Part shown: positions 21,967-29,619 of the stretch, one piece after another | Layout: the number at the start of each line of letters is the position of its first letter | Position numbering within the stretch: position 1 is the first letter of the stretch | Source of the DNA: Gammaproteobacteria bacterium | Lineage (GTDB): Bacteria > Pseudomonadota > Gammaproteobacteria > Arenicellales > JAANXG01 | Assembly (NCBI GenBank): GCA_024639325.1 | Contig: JAHEIO010000031.1 | Coordinates: forward strand, 1 to 35,560 | Length of the DNA stretch: 35,560 nucleotides | Reading direction: 5' to 3' | Translations under genes and position numbers: made by a program | Notes under the pieces: generated by a model | Told to the model about the DNA's origin: nothing | The model's database searches: none | Seen by the model: only the letters and a program-made list of their open reading frames with translations

Positions 21967-23429
21967 CACGCAGCTACTCCAAGGAAGTTGCTCACTATTG
22001 ATCGATCGTTCATGGGCAGGAACTCGTCACCCACCTGCTGGGTGTCTTCATGCCCCTTGCCCGCAATCAATATCCAGTCGCCGTCAGCGGCGCCCTCGAT
22101 GGCGCGCCGGATAGCCTCGACTCGATCATTGATGACCATGGGGACCTCACTCATCCCCCGAATGATCTCGTCCGTAATGGCGCCAGGCGATTCGTGCCGC
22201 GGGTTATCGTCGGTAACGATCACCTCGTCGGACAGTCGCTCGGCAATGGCGCCCATCATCGGCCGTTTTACACGGTCACGATCCCCACCGCAGCCAAACA
22301 CACACCATATCCTTCCCTTGCAGTGCTCTCGCACGGATGAAAGTGCCCGCTCCAGGGCATCGGGGGTGTGGGCATAGTCGACTACCACGGATGGTCCGAT
22401 GCCTGATGTCTTGGGGAACAGCTCCATGCGTCCGGGAACCGGAGCCAGCTGATCGATGGCTGCTGCCACCGACGCACCCGCGGCACCGTTTGCCAGAAGT
22501 ACGGCCGCCACTGCAAGAACGTTGCGCACATTGATCCTGCCTACCAGCCGGGCATGAGCCTTGATGCAAATTTCCGTGTATTTTATTTCCAGGCTCAATC
22601 CGGAAACGTCTATAGACACGCGGTCTAAGGTGACATCTCCCTTGGAAAATCCGTACACCCAGACGGGAACGGAAACGCGGTCGGCCAGGTCCCGCCCGAA
22701 GTCATCGTCGCCGTTGATTACCGCAAAACGCAGCGACGGGAATCGGAAGAGTATCTCCTTTGCTGCGGCGTAATCTTCAAGACCATCATGATAATCAAGA
22801 TGGTCGTGAGTCAGGTTAGTAAACAACGCGGCATCAAAAGACATACCGGAAACCCGGCCCTGGGCCAACGCGTGGGATGACACCTCCATGCAGACATGAG
22901 TCGCACCGAGTTCTCGAAGATCGCGGAGCATGCGGTGAAGCGTGACCGGATCAGGTGTGGTCAAAGCGCTGTTTTTCAGATCACTTATGAAACCCCAACC
23001 CAGGGTACCGATGAAAGCAGCATGAATTCCTTCGGTTAGCAGTGATTGAGCCAGTAGGTGCGCGCAACTCGTCTTTCCATTGGTTCCGGTCACACCCACG
23101 ACGAAAAGCTTACGGCAGGGATTGTCATAAAACCGTTCGGCAACAATGCCGACCTTCTCACGCAGTCTGTTGACGGGTATCAGCGGGACGTGTGCCGAAT
23201 AGCGTATTTCTTTTCCTTCGGATTCCGTCAGAACCGCCGATGCACCGCGCGCCAGCGCCTCGCCGATATAGTCTCTGCCATCGGCGGTAGCGCCGGGATA
23301 TGCAAAAAACAGATATCCCTCTGCGACCGATCGACTGTCTACGCTGAGACCGTTGATTTCAATGCCGGCCACGTCCGCATCGGATAGCAGATCACCGACT
23401 ACCTGACCAAGGTTTTTCGAAGGTGTCAT
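21966..23429 (-). CDS. murE: UDP-MurNAc-L-Ala-D-Glu--meso-diaminopimelate ligase
   Basis: MurE adds the third stem residue. The 487-residue product has SVDSRSVAEGYLFFA, ATP loop GVTGTNGKTSCAH (112-124), EVSSHAL, FTNLTHDHLDYH and, near the end, TDDNPRHESP. The DNPR motif is the recognised signature of meso-diaminopimelate specificity, as opposed to lysine enzymes, so the organism has Gram-negative-type peptidoglycan. Its ATG overlaps the ftsI stop (ATGA) and its stop overlaps the murF start region. Length and motifs are ordinary. Confidence 0.96.
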   Translation of the reverse strand: MTPSKNLGQVVGDLLSDADVAGIEINGLSVDSRSVAEGYLFFAYPGATADGRDYIGEALARGASAVLTESEGKEIRYSAHVPLIPVNRLREKVGIVAERFYDNPCRKLFVVGVTGTNGKTSCAHLLAQSLLTEGIHAAFIGTLGWGFISDLKNSALTTPDPVTLHRMLRDLRELGATHVCMEVSSHALAQGRVSGMSFDAALFTNLTHDHLDYHDGLEDYAAAKEILFRFPSLRFAVINGDDDFGRDLADRVSVPVWVYGFSKGDVTLDRVSIDVSGLSLEIKYTEICIKAHARLVGRINVRNVLAVAAVLLANGAAGASVAAAIDQLAPVPGRMELFPKTSGIGPSVVVDYAHTPDALERALSSVREHCKGRIWCVFGCGGDRDRVKRPMMGAIAERLSDEVIVTDDNPRHESPGAITDEIIRGMSEVPMVINDRVEAIRRAIEGAADGDWILIAGKGHEDTQQVGDEFLPMNDRSIVSNFLGVAA

Positions 23430-25135
23430 GCCTTGCCTTCTTTCAGCCTGCTGAGATCCCGGTCGGGGGGCGCGTTCAATAACCGCAGTGCACCGGACAT
23501 CACTTTTGAAAACACAGGGGCCGCAACCTTGCCGCCGTAATAGTGTTCACCGCGAGGATCGTCAATCACCACAACCATAACGAGACGTGGATGGGTTGCG
23601 GGTCCGTAGCCCACGAAAACTGAGCGGTATCTGTCCTTGGCATATTTTCCGTCGATGATTTTGTGGATGGTCCCGGTCTTGCCGGCAATTCGATAACGCG
23701 GAACCTGCGCCGAAAACCCCGTTCCCTCTTTGCTCACCGCCATTTCCAGCATGCCACTCAAATGCTTGACGACGCGCGGTCTGAATGATTCACGCGCGGC
23801 CACCGGCACGTGGTTTTTGATAAGACGCGGCGACAACAATCGCCCGTCATTGGCAAGTGCGGTATACGCGCGGGCGAGTTGCAACGCGGTAGTCGACAGA
23901 CCGTAGCCGAAGGAAAGGGTGGCGTGTTCGAACGGCTTGAGCTTTCGTGACGGCACCGTCCCAGCCACTTCGCCTGCGAAGCCAATGCCGGTTGCTGAAC
24001 CGAAACCCACCTTATTCAATACATCGATCAACGCATCCGGTTTGGTCATCATCGCAATTTTCGCGGCGCCCACGTTGCTCGACTTCATTATCACACTGGC
24101 TACCGTGAGCAAGCCGTAGTCGTGGTGATCCCGGACGCGACTCCTGCCGATCCGCATGACGCCGGGAGCGGTCTCGATAAGCGTATTCGGCCTCAGCAGC
24201 TTTGACTGCAGCGCCATGGCAACTGTGAACGGCTTGATTGTCGAACCCGGTTCGAACACATCGGTAATCGCCCTGTTCCTGAATTGCTCGGGTTTGCGGT
24301 CCAGCCGGTTGTTGGGATTGAATTTCGGCTGGTTGACCATGGCCAGCACATCGCCGTTAATCGCATCCAGCACCACGACCGACCCCCCCAAAGCACGGTG
24401 CTCTTTCACGGCGGCGCTGAGGTGGCGATAGGCGTGGTATTGAATACGCGAGTCGATTGTGATCACCAGATCCTGGCCATCTACGGCCGGATTGATCTGT
24501 TCCGTCAAATCGACGACGTGGCCGACACGGTCCCTCAGTACGCGGGCTCTCCCCGCCGCACCTGACAGCTGCCTGTTGTAGACTAGCTCGAGACCTTCCT
24601 GTCCGACGTCATCGATATCGGTAAATCCAAGAATCTGTCCGAAAACCGGACCTGCGGGATAGTACCGGCGGTACTCCCGGCGAAGCCCAATGCCAGGAAT
24701 ATCGAGGGCCACGAGTTCGTCGGTAATCGGCGGTGACAAGTGTCGCTTAAGGTAGACGAACTCCCGATCCTGATGAGATTCGAGCAGTGTTTTCAGGGAG
24801 GATTGGGAAGTATTCAACAACTCCGCTAGCCGCACCCAGGAATGGCCCTCGTGGAGCAGCGTCGGGGGATGAGCCCAGACGGAATCTACAGGTGTGCTGA
24901 CCGCCAGAACCTCGCCATGTCGATCGATAATCATTCCTCTGTTGGCCTTGGTCTCGATGATGCGTTCATAACGGGCATCACCCTGCGCCTGCAGGTAGTC
25001 CTTCATCACCACCTGCAGATAAGCCGCGCGGGTGATCAACGCGGCGAAACCCAGAAACAACAAAGCCAGCATGAAGTACTGGCGTATAAATGATCGGCAG
25101 GCAGGTTTTGCGTCGGATCTTTTTCTGCCGGTCAT
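23426..25135 (-). CDS. ftsI: Septal peptidoglycan transpeptidase FtsI (PBP3)
   Basis: FtsI cross-links septal peptidoglycan and is the partner of FtsW. The 569-residue product is a class B PBP: a short basic tail, one membrane anchor (about 19-41), the pedestal domain (RGMIIDRHGEVLAVS, GLELVYNRQLSG) and the transpeptidase domain. The active-site motifs are S298-T-I-K301, S352-S-N354 and K486-T-G488. ATG 25135 overlaps the ftsL stop (ATGA); the frame extends further upstream but only antisense-like sequence is there. The C-terminal tail is charged and short. Beta-lactams such as aztreonam target this protein family. Confidence 0.96.
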   Translation of the reverse strand: MTGRKRSDAKPACRSFIRQYFMLALLFLGFAALITRAAYLQVVMKDYLQAQGDARYERIIETKANRGMIIDRHGEVLAVSTPVDSVWAHPPTLLHEGHSWVRLAELLNTSQSSLKTLLESHQDREFVYLKRHLSPPITDELVALDIPGIGLRREYRRYYPAGPVFGQILGFTDIDDVGQEGLELVYNRQLSGAAGRARVLRDRVGHVVDLTEQINPAVDGQDLVITIDSRIQYHAYRHLSAAVKEHRALGGSVVVLDAINGDVLAMVNQPKFNPNNRLDRKPEQFRNRAITDVFEPGSTIKPFTVAMALQSKLLRPNTLIETAPGVMRIGRSRVRDHHDYGLLTVASVIMKSSNVGAAKIAMMTKPDALIDVLNKVGFGSATGIGFAGEVAGTVPSRKLKPFEHATLSFGYGLSTTALQLARAYTALANDGRLLSPRLIKNHVPVAARESFRPRVVKHLSGMLEMAVSKEGTGFSAQVPRYRIAGKTGTIHKIIDGKYAKDRYRSVFVGYGPATHPRLVMVVVIDDPRGEHYYGGKVAAPVFSKVMSGALRLLNAPPDRDLSRLKEGKA

Positions 25136-25398
25136 CGTCTTTCCCCTATCACAACGATCTGATCCGGGTTGGGTGTAACCATACCCAGCTTTCTGATCGC
25201 CTCGGCCTCCACCCGATGGTGCATCGCCCATGTGCTTTGCTCAAGTAGCAATTGCCCCCACTCGATATTGAGTTCGTCTCGCACCTGCTGTGCACGTTGG
25301 AGAGCGACATAGCTCAACCTGTGCTGGTGTCTCATATAAACCACGGCTATCGCGGAAGCGGCGACCGTAACGATGAGCACACCAACGAGACTACGCAT
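25132..25398 (-). CDS. ftsL: Cell division protein FtsL
   Basis: FtsL is a small bitopic protein that forms the FtsQLB complex and activates FtsWI. The 88-residue product has one membrane segment (about 4-22) and a periplasmic helix with heptad hydrophobic spacing (LSYVALQRAQQVRDELNIEWGQLLLE), followed by the typical HHRVEAEAIRKLGMVTP ending. ATG 25398 lies inside the end of rsmH (8-nt overlap), and the stop overlaps ftsI (ATGA). Identification rests on position, size and topology, as the family is poorly conserved in sequence. Confidence 0.93.
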   Translation of the reverse strand: MRSLVGVLIVTVAASAIAVVYMRHQHRLSYVALQRAQQVRDELNIEWGQLLLEQSTWAMHHRVEAEAIRKLGMVTPNPDQIVVIGERR

Positions 25399-26359
25399 AG
25401 TGATGCCCCGTCCGTTCAGCCACCCTGAGTACGGCGCTTCGCGCACGAGGGTTGGCCTCGATCTCGGACCTGTCAGGCCGGCGGGGCTTGCCAATGATTT
25501 TGAGTAAAGGCCTAAGCTGCCGGACGGTAACCGGGATATTTGGCGGATAGTTGTCACCCCTCGCTTGCTCACGCATGAACCGTTTGACCAACCGATCCTC
25601 GAGCGAATGAAAACTGATGATTGCCAGCCGCCCGCCTTTGGCAAGCACACGGACCGCTCTGGGCAGGAATGTGCTCAACTGCTCCATTTCGGAATTGATG
25701 TACATACGCACCGCCTGAAAAGTGCGCGTCGCCGGATGTTTGTTTTTTTCGCGCGTGGGAACGGCGTCAACAACGATGTCGACGAGTTGCCCGGTACGCT
25801 GCAACGGCCGTGTTTTCCTGTATTCAACTATAGCGCGGGCAATACGTCTGGCGTAGCGCTCCTCACCATATTCGCGCAGGACCTGCACCAGTTCGGATTC
25901 TTCCGCATGATTCAGCCAGGAGGAGGCATCGAGTTCCGCGCTCGTATCCATGCGCATGTCCAGCGGTCCGTCGGCCATGAAGCTGAAACCGCGTCCGGGT
26001 GCATCCAGTTGCACGGATGATACGCCCAGATCTGCGATGACGCCGTTAGCCTTCCGGCCCGGCACTATCGATTCGAGGTTTTTGTCGACATCCCTCATCG
26101 AACCGTGCGCAATTCGACAGCGCGGATCTTGTCCGAATCTCTCTCTGGCGTGTATGATCGCACGGTGATCGCGGTCCATCGCAACCAGACATCCTTCGCC
26201 ACCCAAATTTTCGAGTATTGCCTGGCTATGACCACCGCTGCCGAAGGTTACATCCACATACAAGCCATCGTTCTTTATGTTGAGCCCCAGAACGGCTTCC
26301 TCCAGCAGCACCGGGATATGCGAGGTCACGATAGTTTTAACGTTGCTTCGATTCGTCAC
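25391..26359 (-). CDS. rsmH: 16S rRNA m4C1402 methyltransferase RsmH (MraW)
   Basis: RsmH methylates N4 of C1402 in 16S rRNA with S-adenosylmethionine, tuning decoding at the P-site. The product is 322 residues from GTG 26359, which overlaps the mraZ stop as GTGA. An upstream extension would lie inside mraZ and lacks similarity. Blocks: HIPVLLEEAV, SAM-binding VDVTFGSGGHSQAIL, VIADLGVSSVQLD, GFSFMADGPLDMRMD, ERYARRIARAI, FQAVRMYINSE and IISFHSLEDRLVKRF. Standard second gene of the dcw cluster. Confidence 0.95.
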   Translation of the reverse strand: MTNRSNVKTIVTSHIPVLLEEAVLGLNIKNDGLYVDVTFGSGGHSQAILENLGGEGCLVAMDRDHRAIIHARERFGQDPRCRIAHGSMRDVDKNLESIVPGRKANGVIADLGVSSVQLDAPGRGFSFMADGPLDMRMDTSAELDASSWLNHAEESELVQVLREYGEERYARRIARAIVEYRKTRPLQRTGQLVDIVVDAVPTREKNKHPATRTFQAVRMYINSEMEQLSTFLPRAVRVLAKGGRLAIISFHSLEDRLVKRFMREQARGDNYPPNIPVTVRQLRPLLKIIGKPRRPDRSEIEANPRARSAVLRVAERTGHHYA

Positions 26360-26811
26360 AACGACAACGACTCCATTTCGACTGGAAGCGGACCGAGATC
26401 GCTGTCGTCGGCAAGCCACTGTTCACGACGATCGTTCCATAGTTGTTCGTTCCAGATCTCGAACTTATTGCCTTGTCCGATCATGACCACTCGCTTATCG
26501 AGATTTGCAAACTCACGCAACGGTGCCGGCAACAGTACACGGCCGGCCGCGTCAAGATCACAGTCGTTGGCGTGTCCAATGAGGATACGCTTCAATCGCT
26601 GCGCAGCGGGGTCGAGGCTCGGGAGGTTTACCAGTTTGCGCTCGATTTCTTCCCAATCGGCAAGAGGGTAGAGCCAGAGGCAACGCTCGGCGTTGTTGAT
26701 GGTCACGACCATCTTGCCGTCGCTTTGACGCAACAGTCCGTCGCGATAGCGCGTAGGTATCGCGAGGCGGCCTTTTGCATCCAGATTAAGACTGTTTACA
26801 CCGCGAAACAT
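26356..26811 (-). CDS. mraZ: Transcriptional regulator MraZ
   Basis: MraZ is a ring-forming DNA-binding protein with two AbrB/SpoVT-like half-domains. In E. coli it represses its own dcw promoter. The 151-residue product shows both DxxxR loops: D11AKGR15 (DAKGRLAIP) and D87AAGR91 (DAAGRVLLP). It is first in the cluster, and three TGGGA boxes matching its known operator lie 25-50 bp upstream, so autoregulation is well supported. Its stop overlaps the GTG of rsmH. Only a weak ribosome binding site is seen. Confidence 0.95.
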   Translation of the reverse strand: MFRGVNSLNLDAKGRLAIPTRYRDGLLRQSDGKMVVTINNAERCLWLYPLADWEEIERKLVNLPSLDPAAQRLKRILIGHANDCDLDAAGRVLLPAPLREFANLDKRVVMIGQGNKFEIWNEQLWNDRREQWLADDSDLGPLPVEMESLSL

Positions 26812-26913: not shown

Positions 26914-27025
26914 AGAAATTCTGCCTTATCTGACAGACGGTTAGATGTCCATGAGCAGAAATAAGGTGACCGGGTTCAGCAACTTGGCGGAGGCTGAGAA
27001 TTCCCCACTATGATCCCACTTTGGC

Positions 27026-27064
27026 GTTTTGTTCAACAATTTGGTTGTATTTTTTCAACAAAAC
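27026..27064. repeat. 8-bp inverted repeat in the mraZ/HAD intergenic region
   Basis: GTTTTGTT (27026-27033) pairs with AACAAAAC (27057-27064), with a further short AACAA/TTGT pairing inside. It lies in the 330-nt divergent region between mraZ and the HAD gene, upstream of a palindromic ACTATATATAGT at 27099-27110 that may include a -10 for the HAD gene. No clear -35 is seen for that gene. The role is unknown. Confidence 0.35.
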
Positions 27065-27143
27065 CACAATCTCTGGTCCCATGTACGGGGCAAAGAGGAC
27101 TATATATAGTGATTATCGACTCCACCAGACAAAATATCCGGCT

Positions 27144-27815
27144 ATGAGAAAGCGCGCACCCGTGACGCATGCCCTGTTCGACATGGATGGCGTGCTGCTC
27201 GACACGGAAATCATTTACACCCGGGTCACACAACAAATCGTGGGCCGTTACGGCAAGACGTTCGACTGGTCTATCAAGTCCAACATGATCGGTCGCCGCG
27301 CCGAAGAGTCGTCACGTTACCTGGTCGACGCACTGGAACTGCCTATCAGCCCGGAAGACTATCTGCGCGAACGGGATGAGCTGATGAAGCGGGAGTTTCC
27401 ATCCTGCCTGGAACTGCCGGGCGCGCAAAGACTCGTAACGCACCTCGATCGACACGATATTCCCATTGCCGTGGCATCCAGTTCGAGCCGGGAGCTGTTT
27501 GAGATCAAGACCCGCAACCACCCGTGGTTCTCTATGTTCGATGCCGTTGTGACCGGTGACGACCCGGAAATCGAACGTGGCAAACCGGCACCTGACATCT
27601 TTCTACATGCCGCCAAGCTTATCGATGCGACTCCATCAACCACACTGGTATTCGAGGACGCGCCTTCAGGCCTTGCGGCCGCATTGGCCGCGGGCATGCG
27701 AACCGTGGTCGTGCCGGACCCGAATATGGACCTTTCGCGCTACGACGGCGCGGAGTTGATACTCGAAAGCCTGCTGAAATTCTCTCCTCGGGATTTCGGG
27801 CTACCTGCCATTTAA
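27144..27815 (+). CDS. HAD phosphatase similar to pseudouridine-5'-phosphatase
   Basis: A 223-residue HAD-IA phosphatase. Motif I is FDMDGVLLDTE (nucleophile D13, acid/base D15), motif II lies in VASSSS (112-115), motif III is the lysine of GKPAPDIF (K147) and motif IV is VFEDAPSG (E171, D172). The helical cap is inserted after motif I. As I recall the human PUDP/HDHD1 (GS1) protein, similarity runs end to end, including KSNMIGR..., GDDPEIERGKP, ALAAGM and the FGLP ending. Dephosphorylation of pseudouridine 5'-phosphate is therefore the best guess, but HAD substrates are hard to predict. ATG 27144 fits the family; no good ribosome binding site is visible. The transcarbamylase gene follows 97 nt downstream. 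Confidence 0.82.
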   Translation: MRKRAPVTHALFDMDGVLLDTEIIYTRVTQQIVGRYGKTFDWSIKSNMIGRRAEESSRYLVDALELPISPEDYLRERDELMKREFPSCLELPGAQRLVTHLDRHDIPIAVASSSSRELFEIKTRNHPWFSMFDAVVTGDDPEIERGKPAPDIFLHAAKLIDATPSTTLVFEDAPSGLAAALAAGMRTVVVPDPNMDLSRYDGAELILESLLKFSPRDFGLPAI

Positions 27816-27912: not shown

Positions 27913-28848
27913 ATGTCCGAACCACCTAAACATCTAATCGACTGGAAATTCTGGCGGGACGACGATATTCGACTTGTTCTCGAATTATCGCGCACGGTCA
28001 AACACAATCGTCGCGAGTATCAGGATCGCATGCTGGGGAACACGCTGGTCATGTTGTTCCAGAAGACTTCGACCCGTACCCGCGTATCATTCGAAGCCGG
28101 TATGACCGAACTTGGAGGACACGCGATCAATCTCGACTGGCGGGCCACGAATTTCACTCTGAGTAAAGTCGGATTCGAGACCCGATACTTATGCCGGAAT
28201 GCTGCGATTTTGATGGCGAGGCTCAAAAGCAACGCAGATCTGACCGAGATGGAAAAAGCGTCCTCGGTCCCACTTATCAATGGCTGCTGCAACCTTTATC
28301 ACCCATGCCAGGCACTGGCTGACATGTTGACCATCGCTGAAGACCGGAATGGCAAAGTTGCCGGATCCAAGCTCACCTACATCGGTGTTTACAACAACGT
28401 AGTCAACTCCCTGACATCCATCTCCGCGGCCCTCGGAGTGCACCTGACTCTGGTGTGCCCCATCAGGAACGATGATGCGATCGATCACGAATCACGCCGA
28501 AGACTGCTGGGCATGGGGCATTTGACGGAAACCCTGGATCTTGAAACAGCGGTTTCAGACGCCGACTATGTTTACACGGACACCTGGCTCGACATGGAAT
28601 TCTTCAATGATCCAAAGTATGCAAACGAGAAAGAACAGCGCTGCCGGATAATGATGCCCTACCAGATCAACGCTGAATTGATGAACAAAAGCCGGGCCAG
28701 AATTATGCACGATATGCCGATTCACCCCGGGTTCGAGATTGCCGAAGACATGGTGGAGTCAGAGCAATCGATCATTTACGACCAGGCGGAAAACCGCCTC
28801 GAGGCCCAGAAGGCCATCATATTGCATTTGCTGCAGCAGCGGCCCTGA
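27913..28848 (+). CDS. Divergent transcarbamylase, ornithine carbamoyltransferase family
   Basis: A 311-residue protein of the aspartate/ornithine carbamoyltransferase fold. The carbamoyl-phosphate site is intact: STRTR (53-57) in FQKTSTRTRVSFEAGM and HPCQ (130-133). NNVVNS (161-166) and D223 of the second-substrate side also fit ornithine enzymes. Two defining ornithine loops differ: the usual D-x-W-x-SMG is DTWLDME (223-229), and the HCLP motif with its substrate-binding Cys is HDMP (266-269). The tail DQAENRLEAQKAI is typical. It would usually be labelled ArgF, and arginine synthesis is supported by argJ in this window, but the changed loops make the second substrate uncertain. It stands alone with a terminator directly after it. 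Confidence 0.8.
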   Translation: MSEPPKHLIDWKFWRDDDIRLVLELSRTVKHNRREYQDRMLGNTLVMLFQKTSTRTRVSFEAGMTELGGHAINLDWRATNFTLSKVGFETRYLCRNAAILMARLKSNADLTEMEKASSVPLINGCCNLYHPCQALADMLTIAEDRNGKVAGSKLTYIGVYNNVVNSLTSISAALGVHLTLVCPIRNDDAIDHESRRRLLGMGHLTETLDLETAVSDADYVYTDTWLDMEFFNDPKYANEKEQRCRIMMPYQINAELMNKSRARIMHDMPIHPGFEIAEDMVESEQSIIYDQAENRLEAQKAIILHLLQQRP

Positions 28849-28850
28849 CC

Positions 28851-28906
28851 ATACCGCGGTCGAATCCTGCACCGTGCAGACAGGACCTGCCGGTATTTAC
28901 TTTTTT
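28851..28906 (+). terminator. Rho-independent terminator of the transcarbamylase gene
   Basis: ATACCG (28851-28856) pairs with CGGTAT (28891-28896), and GGTC (28858-28861) with GACC (28884-28887). An inner CTGC/GCAG stem is possible. TTTAC and six T (28901-28906) follow. The element begins 3 nt after the stop codon and overlaps the last codons of the convergent thioesterase gene. It has a U-run only in the plus direction. Confidence 0.7.
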
Positions 28907-29388
28907 ACGATGGCAATCGGCTCCCCGATGCCCTTCGGCAGTGTTAGGTCGGCCTGGGATTGTTTCATTTCTTCGAGCATTGCGATTGCTTTGCCCGGCA
29001 TCGGAGACGTTCGCCGTTTTTTCATATCCACATGGGCGACGAGTTGTTCCGTGAAACAAGACAGAACGCCTTTCTCAGCATGGTACATTTCCAGCAGGAC
29101 GTGCAGCAGCTTCGGGCTGTAATCCATGACACGATATGTGATCCTCAGCGGGTCTCCCGCACCGACTTCCTGTTGATAGGTGAAAACATTTTTGAGAGAG
29201 AACAGGCTGCAATTTTCTTCGTTCAGATAGGTTTCGCCGAGCCCCATCATTTCCTGTGCCTCGAAATTTGCGTTTTCGAACGCGAGCGAATAGTAAGCCA
29301 CATTCATGTGCCCGTTGATGTCACACCATTCCGTCAGGACTGTTTGAGGTGATGTCTCGATGGGTCTCGAAGTGTCTAGGGTATTCAT
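28897..29388 (-). CDS. Hotdog-fold acyl-CoA thioesterase-like protein
   Basis: A 163-residue single-hotdog protein. The active-site region reads EWCDINGHMNVAYYSLAFENA, where Asp followed by NGHMN is the 4HBT-type thioesterase pattern. The central helix and the strands DPLRITYRVMDYSPKLLHVLLEM and EQLVAHVDMKKRR match the family that includes betainyl-CoA and dehydrocarnitine thioesterases, but no carnitine genes are nearby, so the substrate is open. ATG 29388 has GGAG six bases upstream and is preferred over GTG 29415. It is convergent with the transcarbamylase and divergent from the DUF3617 gene. Between the two starts (29389-29619) I see only a TGTTCA-TT-TGAACA palindrome at about 29490-29503 and no clear promoter. 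Confidence 0.78.
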   Translation of the reverse strand: MNTLDTSRPIETSPQTVLTEWCDINGHMNVAYYSLAFENANFEAQEMMGLGETYLNEENCSLFSLKNVFTYQQEVGAGDPLRITYRVMDYSPKLLHVLLEMYHAEKGVLSCFTEQLVAHVDMKKRRTSPMPGKAIAMLEEMKQSQADLTLPKGIGEPIAIVKK

Positions 29389-29619
29389 TTGTAGCTCCAG
29401 TTTTCGAGATTGCACACTGAACCTTACTCAAAAGCGTCTCGATAGCCAATATCCGGGCTGTGAGCCGTGCCTATTATCCTTGCGCAGCAGCATGTTCATT
29501 TGAACAGGCTCTTGGTTTCGGAATTATCGCCGGCTATCGTGATATGATTTCGACCCTGCCTTTCCAGAAAACATTGCACATCCAGATATTCCACTTTCTA
29601 TCACTCAACAGGAAACAAA

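Follow-up and report, generated by a model that had tools for sequence, protein, structure and literature searches.

The gene at positions 27,913 to 28,848 of the window (the whole stretch of DNA analysed, 35,560 nucleotides of contig JAHEIO010000031.1 from a Gammaproteobacteria bacterium) most probably encodes its organism's anabolic ornithine transcarbamylase (OTC), a member, to judge from its sequence, of an OTC clade in which the ornithine-binding pocket has been remodelled. The clade is named here after HDMP, the motif that replaces HCLP. The family is already catalogued by NCBIfam (NF011379, PRK14804) and named ‘ornithine carbamoyltransferase’, which is the label of a profile model and does not come from an assay; we know of no assay or other biochemistry of any member of the clade. 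Literature searches for OTCs with HDMP, or with altered SMG and HCLP motifs, found no paper on the clade's altered motifs, and among papers on ornithine carbamoyltransferase and Bathyarchaeota, judged by their titles, nothing on the HDMP clade was found.

The window gene, its motifs and its neighbourhood

The features of the gene are listed below, with equivalent positions numbered as in E. coli ArgI.

27,913 to 28,848, plus strand: HDMP-clade transcarbamylase gene (argF-like), 311 amino acids, a single open frame from ATG to TGA
28,069 to 28,083, plus strand: STRTR (residues 53-57), carbamoyl-phosphate site, conserved by sequence and alignment
28,150 to 28,152, plus strand: Asn80, at the position of Gln82 of E. 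coli ArgI (80's loop); Asn in 84 and Gln in 6 of 90 clade sequences
28,300 to 28,311, plus strand: HPCQ (residues 130-133), carbamoyl-phosphate motif, conserved by sequence and alignment
28,396 to 28,398, plus strand: Asn162, equivalent of Asn167 (ornithine site), conserved in 90 of 90
28,579 to 28,581, plus strand: Asp223, equivalent of Asp231, conserved in 90 of 90; role as given in the accessible part of PMC7004355
28,588 to 28,599, plus strand: LDME (residues 226-229) in place of xSMG; Ser235 replaced by Asp in 88 of 90
28,597 to 28,614, plus strand: insertion of about six residues, EFFNDP (229-234), in the SMG loop, from the motif table; its placing depends on the alignment
28,708 to 28,719, plus strand: HDMP (residues 266-269) in place of HCLP; HDMP in 80 of 80 genome_contigs loci (best 80 of 251)

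A first-pass annotation had described a transcarbamylase with intact carbamoyl-phosphate motifs, in which the SMG loop reads LDME and the HCLP motif reads HDMP, with Asp in place of both the Ser and the Cys. These readings were confirmed. STRTR and HPCQ are read in the 311-residue open frame, where FQKTSTRT and HPCQ satisfy the carbamoyl-phosphate patterns FxKxSxRT and HPxQ. Alignment with E. coli ArgI pairs Ser235 with D227, Cys273 with D267 and Leu274 with M268, and the two Asp replacements are fixed in the clade. The canonical DxxxSMG signature of the 240's loop is not satisfied by DTWLDME, in which D231 and M236 are retained and the Ser and Gly are lost, and the canonical HCLP is not satisfied by HDMP. 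The ATCase motifs RxQxER and HPxP are absent from the window protein.

Both Pfam domains, OTCace_N and OTCace, were found in the protein. It scores above the cut-off of NF011379 (443.1 bits; cut-off 373) and below that of the general OTC model TIGR00658 (243.9; cut-off 280.85), and it falls far below those of TIGR04384 (putrescine; 198.9 vs 500) and NF003384 (N-acetylornithine carbamoyltransferase; 130.7 vs 288).

The surroundings of the gene were also inspected. A thioesterase-like gene (28,897-29,415) is convergent with it, and a HAD-family hydrolase-like ORF, assigned by eye, lies on the same strand at 27,021-27,815 and ends 97 bases before it; genes resembling ftsI, mraW and mraZ of the division cluster were recognised by eye on the minus strand at 23,426-26,811. 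When eight window proteins were compared with the sequence flanking the 80 genome_contigs loci, up to 5 kb on either side, only the thioesterase was matched, at 36-39% identity near L034 and L035, and the HAD-like ORF had no counterpart at these loci (best 80 of 251). The ARG box TGAAT-N4-ATTCA, allowing up to two mismatches, occurs 15 times in the window against 14.8 expected and not at the gene, the nearest matches lying at 26,776 and 30,618.

Conservation, placement and spread of the HDMP clade

A scan of genome_contigs with six short peptides taken from the window protein yielded 251 stretches encoding relatives, and the best 80 were kept. The scan is biased towards the altered motifs, since two of the six peptides contain them. 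HDMP is present in all 80 of these loci, and the loop reads DM[E/Q] in 78 and NME in two (L053 and L064); the altered motifs are therefore not a product of chance or sequencing error. An alignment was made of 90 distinct sequences picked for HDMP (one pair being at least 99% identical) and 34 HCxP enzymes. Within this HDMP-selected set R57, D140, D231, H272, E299, R106, H133, N167, M236, R319 and K53 are retained in 90 of 90, and Tyr229 is Tyr in all 90. The Ser235 position is Asp in 88 and Asn in two, and the Gln82 position Asn in 84 and Gln in six; the clade also differs in having about six extra residues behind the SMG position and Met for Leu in HxLP. The window protein is 28-37% identical to the 34 HCxP sequences, one of which is of putrescine type.

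Two trees were built, with 16 HDMP rows in the first, after removal of identical rows, and 39 in the second; characterised references in them are few (E. coli ArgI and PyrB in the second, and also YgeW in the first). With the motif columns (loop and HxLP) removed, the 39 HDMP rows form one clade, with support of 100/100, apart from 14 HCxP rows. The suggestion that the protein might belong to a distinct ArgF subfamily is thus supported. The clade could be one cluster of the ‘unknown carbamoyltransferases’ (UTC) of Naumoff et al. 2004, which the available portion of that paper (PMC514541) describes as annotated as OTC and lying outside the two main OTC families; the likeness is one of description.

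The HDMP type is a rare, widely scattered OTC branch. Judged by record titles, it occurs in Gammaproteobacteria, Latescibacterota, Acidobacteriota, Bacillota and Bathyarchaeota; such a spread across phyla suggests horizontal transfer. In the window's phylum, NF011379 at E <= 1e-90 matched one of 398 genomes, the window's own; in the phylum of the Paenibacillus genome G100 it matched eight of 398, G100 included, all eight under the curated cut-off. In the class of the Bathyarchaeon G092, 50 of 151 genomes gave a match at E <= 1e-70, 28 above the cut-off and 22 below, these being profile matches and not motif reads. A partial second HDMP-type copy in G093 (L212) runs into masked bases. Among plasmid records 534 matched, all at less than 60% identity (best Priestia, 45.8%; next listed, 37.1%), and among phage records 27 matched, also all below 60% (36.3% the best among the ten listed); no relative was found in viral_contigs.

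Arginine-pathway context and alternative roles

The window genome contains two PF00185 matches, the window gene and an ATCase (RLQLER, HPGP), and the second canonical argF for which the first-pass annotation had proposed to look was not among them. Genes for argG (461.9 bits), argH (611.7) and argC (425.1) are all above cut-off. As argC, argG and argH are present and no other OTC-type gene is, the window enzyme is the sole candidate for the citrulline step. The best carbamate kinase match in the profile search reaches 23.8 bits (cut-off 358.25), and for arginine deiminase (arcA) there are weak matches of 21-31 bits and none over cut-off; the absence of both over cut-off argues for an anabolic rather than a catabolic enzyme. 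Since the genome is 95.55% complete, an argF may have been missed; a canonical OTC was also not found in the relatives G002 (98% complete) and G041 (95%).

Among 60 related genomes of the window's order, its own included, the HDMP type occurs in four (G000, which is the window genome, G002, G003 and G041), none with a canonical-type OTC; a canonical-type match (E < 1e-20) is found in 52, and neither type in four. This distribution of the two types gives a Fisher p of 1.4e-4, uncorrected for kinship. The motif was read in 26 of the 52 canonical-type matches (L007-L032), and is HCLP in all 26.

A wider TIGR00658 search covered 46 entries representing 44 distinct genomes (G060 has the same places as G003, and G063 as G002). 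Searches for argG and argH covered 42 of the 44, leaving out G066 and G072, together with G001, a relative lacking the HDMP gene. Both genes are above cut-off in 35 of the 42 HDMP genomes. The HDMP enzyme is the only OTC candidate in 29 of these 35, and an HCxP OTC accompanies it in the other six (G062, G074, G077, G079, G086 and G100). Other carbamoyltransferases in these genomes were recognised as ATCases, as YgeW-like enzymes or as HSLP enzymes, the last of ureidoglycine type by motif; the paralogues left unclassified, a weak place in G079 (C4, 50 bits) and L219 in G088, belong to genomes outside the 29. Seven further Bacillota genomes have the HDMP type; it is the sole PF00185 match in one of them, and the other six contain one or two additional matches. 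Two kinds of paralogue were also observed: the HCxP-type OTC L118 of G079, which also has the HDMP type, has HCMP and, following SM, an unusual loop, and L214, L215 and L216 (G061, G064 and G041) carry HSLP and FFQPSTRTR and are of ureidoglycine type by motif, with a gene for carbamate kinase about 1.2 kb away.

The seven HDMP genomes of the 42 without argG and argH over cut-off are all archaeal by title (G088, G092, G093, G094, G097, G099 and G101), and citrulline formation is therefore not an obvious role in these carriers. In three of them, the Bathyarchaeota G092, G093 and G097, carbamate kinase scores 400-422 bits, arginine-deiminase-like matches are weak (18-33 bits), and none of argC, argG and argH passes its cut-off; the carbamate kinase and the deiminase-like matches make a catabolic role possible there. 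G088 has argC and a carbamate kinase match (342.2) just under cut-off, G101 has argC, and G094 and G099 have neither carbamate kinase nor argC over cut-off, with no role evident. The Bathyarchaeota HDMP genes sit, by eye, among translation-type genes, a setting that is uninformative on substrate.

Two Bacillota members have neighbours of another sort. On plasmid NZ_CP085446.1 of Priestia megaterium KF18 (L113, 6,729-18,686), the HDMP transcarbamylase lies inside a phosphonate-like gene cluster with PEP-mutase-like, two-subunit TPP-decarboxylase-like (sulfopyruvate/phosphonopyruvate-decarboxylase-like) and two ATP-grasp genes, as well as M20 peptidase, alkanesulfonate-monooxygenase-like and LysE genes, with IS6 elements nearby. 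By sequence it looks like a phosphonate natural-product cluster, with key matches under the NCBIfam cut-offs. In Paenibacillus qinlingensis (L111, 4,929-6,524) the HDMP gene is followed by a LysE-family-like exporter gene, identified by eye, and a canonical argF is grouped with argG and argH at another place of the genome, G100:C6. No paper was found on Priestia phosphonates and OTC, and the literature found on OTC self-resistance concerns mostly phaseolotoxin, with nothing on the altered motifs of the clade.

The first-pass annotation had also proposed carbamoylation of a different amine. Candidates considered here include 2,4-diaminobutyrate, 2,3-diaminopropionate, putrescine and lysine; the specificity would then be set by the additional acids in the pocket. 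The same place is Asp (HDLP) in diaminopropionate and diaminobutyrate transcarbamylases, according to the accessible text of a review (PMC4581275), as it is in the Streptomyces protein L227, the HDMP clade having Met for Leu beside it; the seven archaeal carriers without argG and argH over cut-off are also consistent with another substrate. The putrescine and diaminopropionate types were each represented in the trees by one row, identified by motif alone; the clade joins the former at a weak 54/65, and it stands apart from the latter in the best tree, although their joining is not rejected (p-AU 0.248). However, the marks of the diaminopropionate and diaminobutyrate enzymes, given in the same text (PMC4581275) as Thr or Ser at D231 and (T/S)RWQ in the loop, are absent from the clade, which keeps D231 (TDTW; 90 of 90) and has no RWQ. 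The YGL-type loop and Gln53 of putrescine carbamoyltransferase are likewise absent, the window protein having a DME loop and Lys51 where the Gln of FxQxSxRT would stand. The scores under TIGR04384 and NF003384 are far too low, and a different substrate would leave the host with argG and argH but without an OTC. For the window organism, whose sole OTC-type gene stands alongside argC, argG and argH, activity on another amine is unlikely; of the two alternatives first proposed, the distinct subfamily is upheld and the different amine is not. A catabolic OTC, converting citrulline to ornithine and carbamoyl phosphate, would suit the three Bathyarchaeota with carbamate kinase, but it is scarcely credible for the window genome, where neither carbamate kinase nor arginine deiminase reaches its cut-off and argC, argG and argH are present.

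The Priestia and Paenibacillus loci raise the alternative of an OTC variant selected for tolerance of natural inhibitors (phosphonate or phosphosulfamyl ornithine analogues), which would still use ornithine while its rebuilt loop and Cys-to-Asp change lowered inhibitor binding. The Priestia member could be a self-resistance OTC, and because these members and two more Bacillota genomes form a branch sister (92/83) to that of the window protein, a resistance or biosynthetic role in the Bacillota branch is not dismissible as remote. The scatter of the HDMP type across phyla fits this alternative, as does the phaseolotoxin-resistant OTC ArgK, for which substitutions around the SMG loop are reported in the part of PMC4530439 available; a similar part in self-resistance is suggested, for the Priestia relative alone, by its gene cluster. 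ArgK is nevertheless of another kind, since its HCLP and SMG are intact and SGRTS stands where other OTCs have STRTR (PMC10765591, in the portion available). ArgK-like resistance by sequence was set aside, the window protein keeping STRTR and altering HCLP and SMG, the opposite of ArgK. No such cluster was seen by eye beside eight other members whose neighbours were listed, and in the Priestia cluster the PEP-mutase match (318.3) is just below its cut-off of 319.55 and the decarboxylase matches are below theirs. Selection for inhibitor tolerance is accordingly considered very unlikely as the explanation of the window enzyme. Little more than a long shot is the extended version, in which the HDMP pocket would be an old, horizontally traded OTC pocket tolerant of bisubstrate-type inhibitors, the Priestia copy being the self-resistance gene of a plasmid cluster that makes an OTC-blocking phosphonate (e.g., phosphonoacetyl-ornithine-like), with argF displaced elsewhere.

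A predicted ornithine pocket

The preferred reading remains an anabolic OTC. The enzyme resembles ArgF/ArgI (TIGR00658, EC 2.1.3.3) in its fold, its carbamoyl-phosphate motifs and K53, N167, D231, M236, H272 and E299, and in its genomic role as sole OTC with argC, argG and argH; it differs by SMG to DME with about six extra residues, HCLP to HDMP and Q82 to N. That such loops set substrate choice in relatives, as stated in the first-pass annotation, agrees with what is available of the review (PMC4581275).

The predicted substrate is L-ornithine, which with carbamoyl phosphate would give L-citrulline and phosphate, feeding ArgG and ArgH. Carbamoyl phosphate would bind first, at STRTR, R103, H130 and Q133. 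The alpha-amino and carboxylate groups of ornithine would then be held by D223, N162 and the backbone of M228, and D267 may provide the anion facing the delta-amine in place of the Cys273 thiolate. The longer DME loop would close over the site, substituting for SMG.

The accessible part of a study of E. coli ArgI (PMC7004355) reports that D231 binds the alpha-amino group of ornithine, that the Cys273 thiolate faces the delta-amine, and that protonation of Tyr229 is coupled to Cys273. In that text D231A, H272L, E299Q and R57A lower kcat/KM by 44- to 580-fold and C273A by about 3-fold, an older figure of about 25-fold also being cited for C273A. The four residues critical in the E. coli enzyme (R57, D231, H272 and E299) are kept in 90 of 90 clade sequences, and the replaced Cys273 is, by these figures, nearly dispensable there. 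The sequence, the clade, the conserved residues and the genome context are observations; the substrate, the geometry of the pocket and the kinetics are deductions.

An AlphaFold2 model, made with 22 clade sequences, has a pLDDT of 89.5 and a pTM of 0.90, with low confidence at residues ~51-90 (block means 57-75) and at the last residue. Its best match in a PDB comparison is the OTC 2i6u_A (Z 37.2, rmsd 2.1 over 296 residues). OTCs rank first, and because putrescine enzymes score within 2 Z units of them, the fold does not decide the substrate.

The OTC signatures DxxxSMG and HCLP are used for annotation, and a clade spanning several phyla conforms to neither of them, although it appears to occupy the OTC step. 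Motif-based annotation would call such organisms argF-less or assign the wrong substrate. The clade is a natural test of the roles of the SMG and HCLP residues, and of whether Asp can stand in for the Cys thiolate opposite the delta-amine. Should any of its members prove to be inhibitor-tolerant, they would also be a pointer to undiscovered natural OTC inhibitors.
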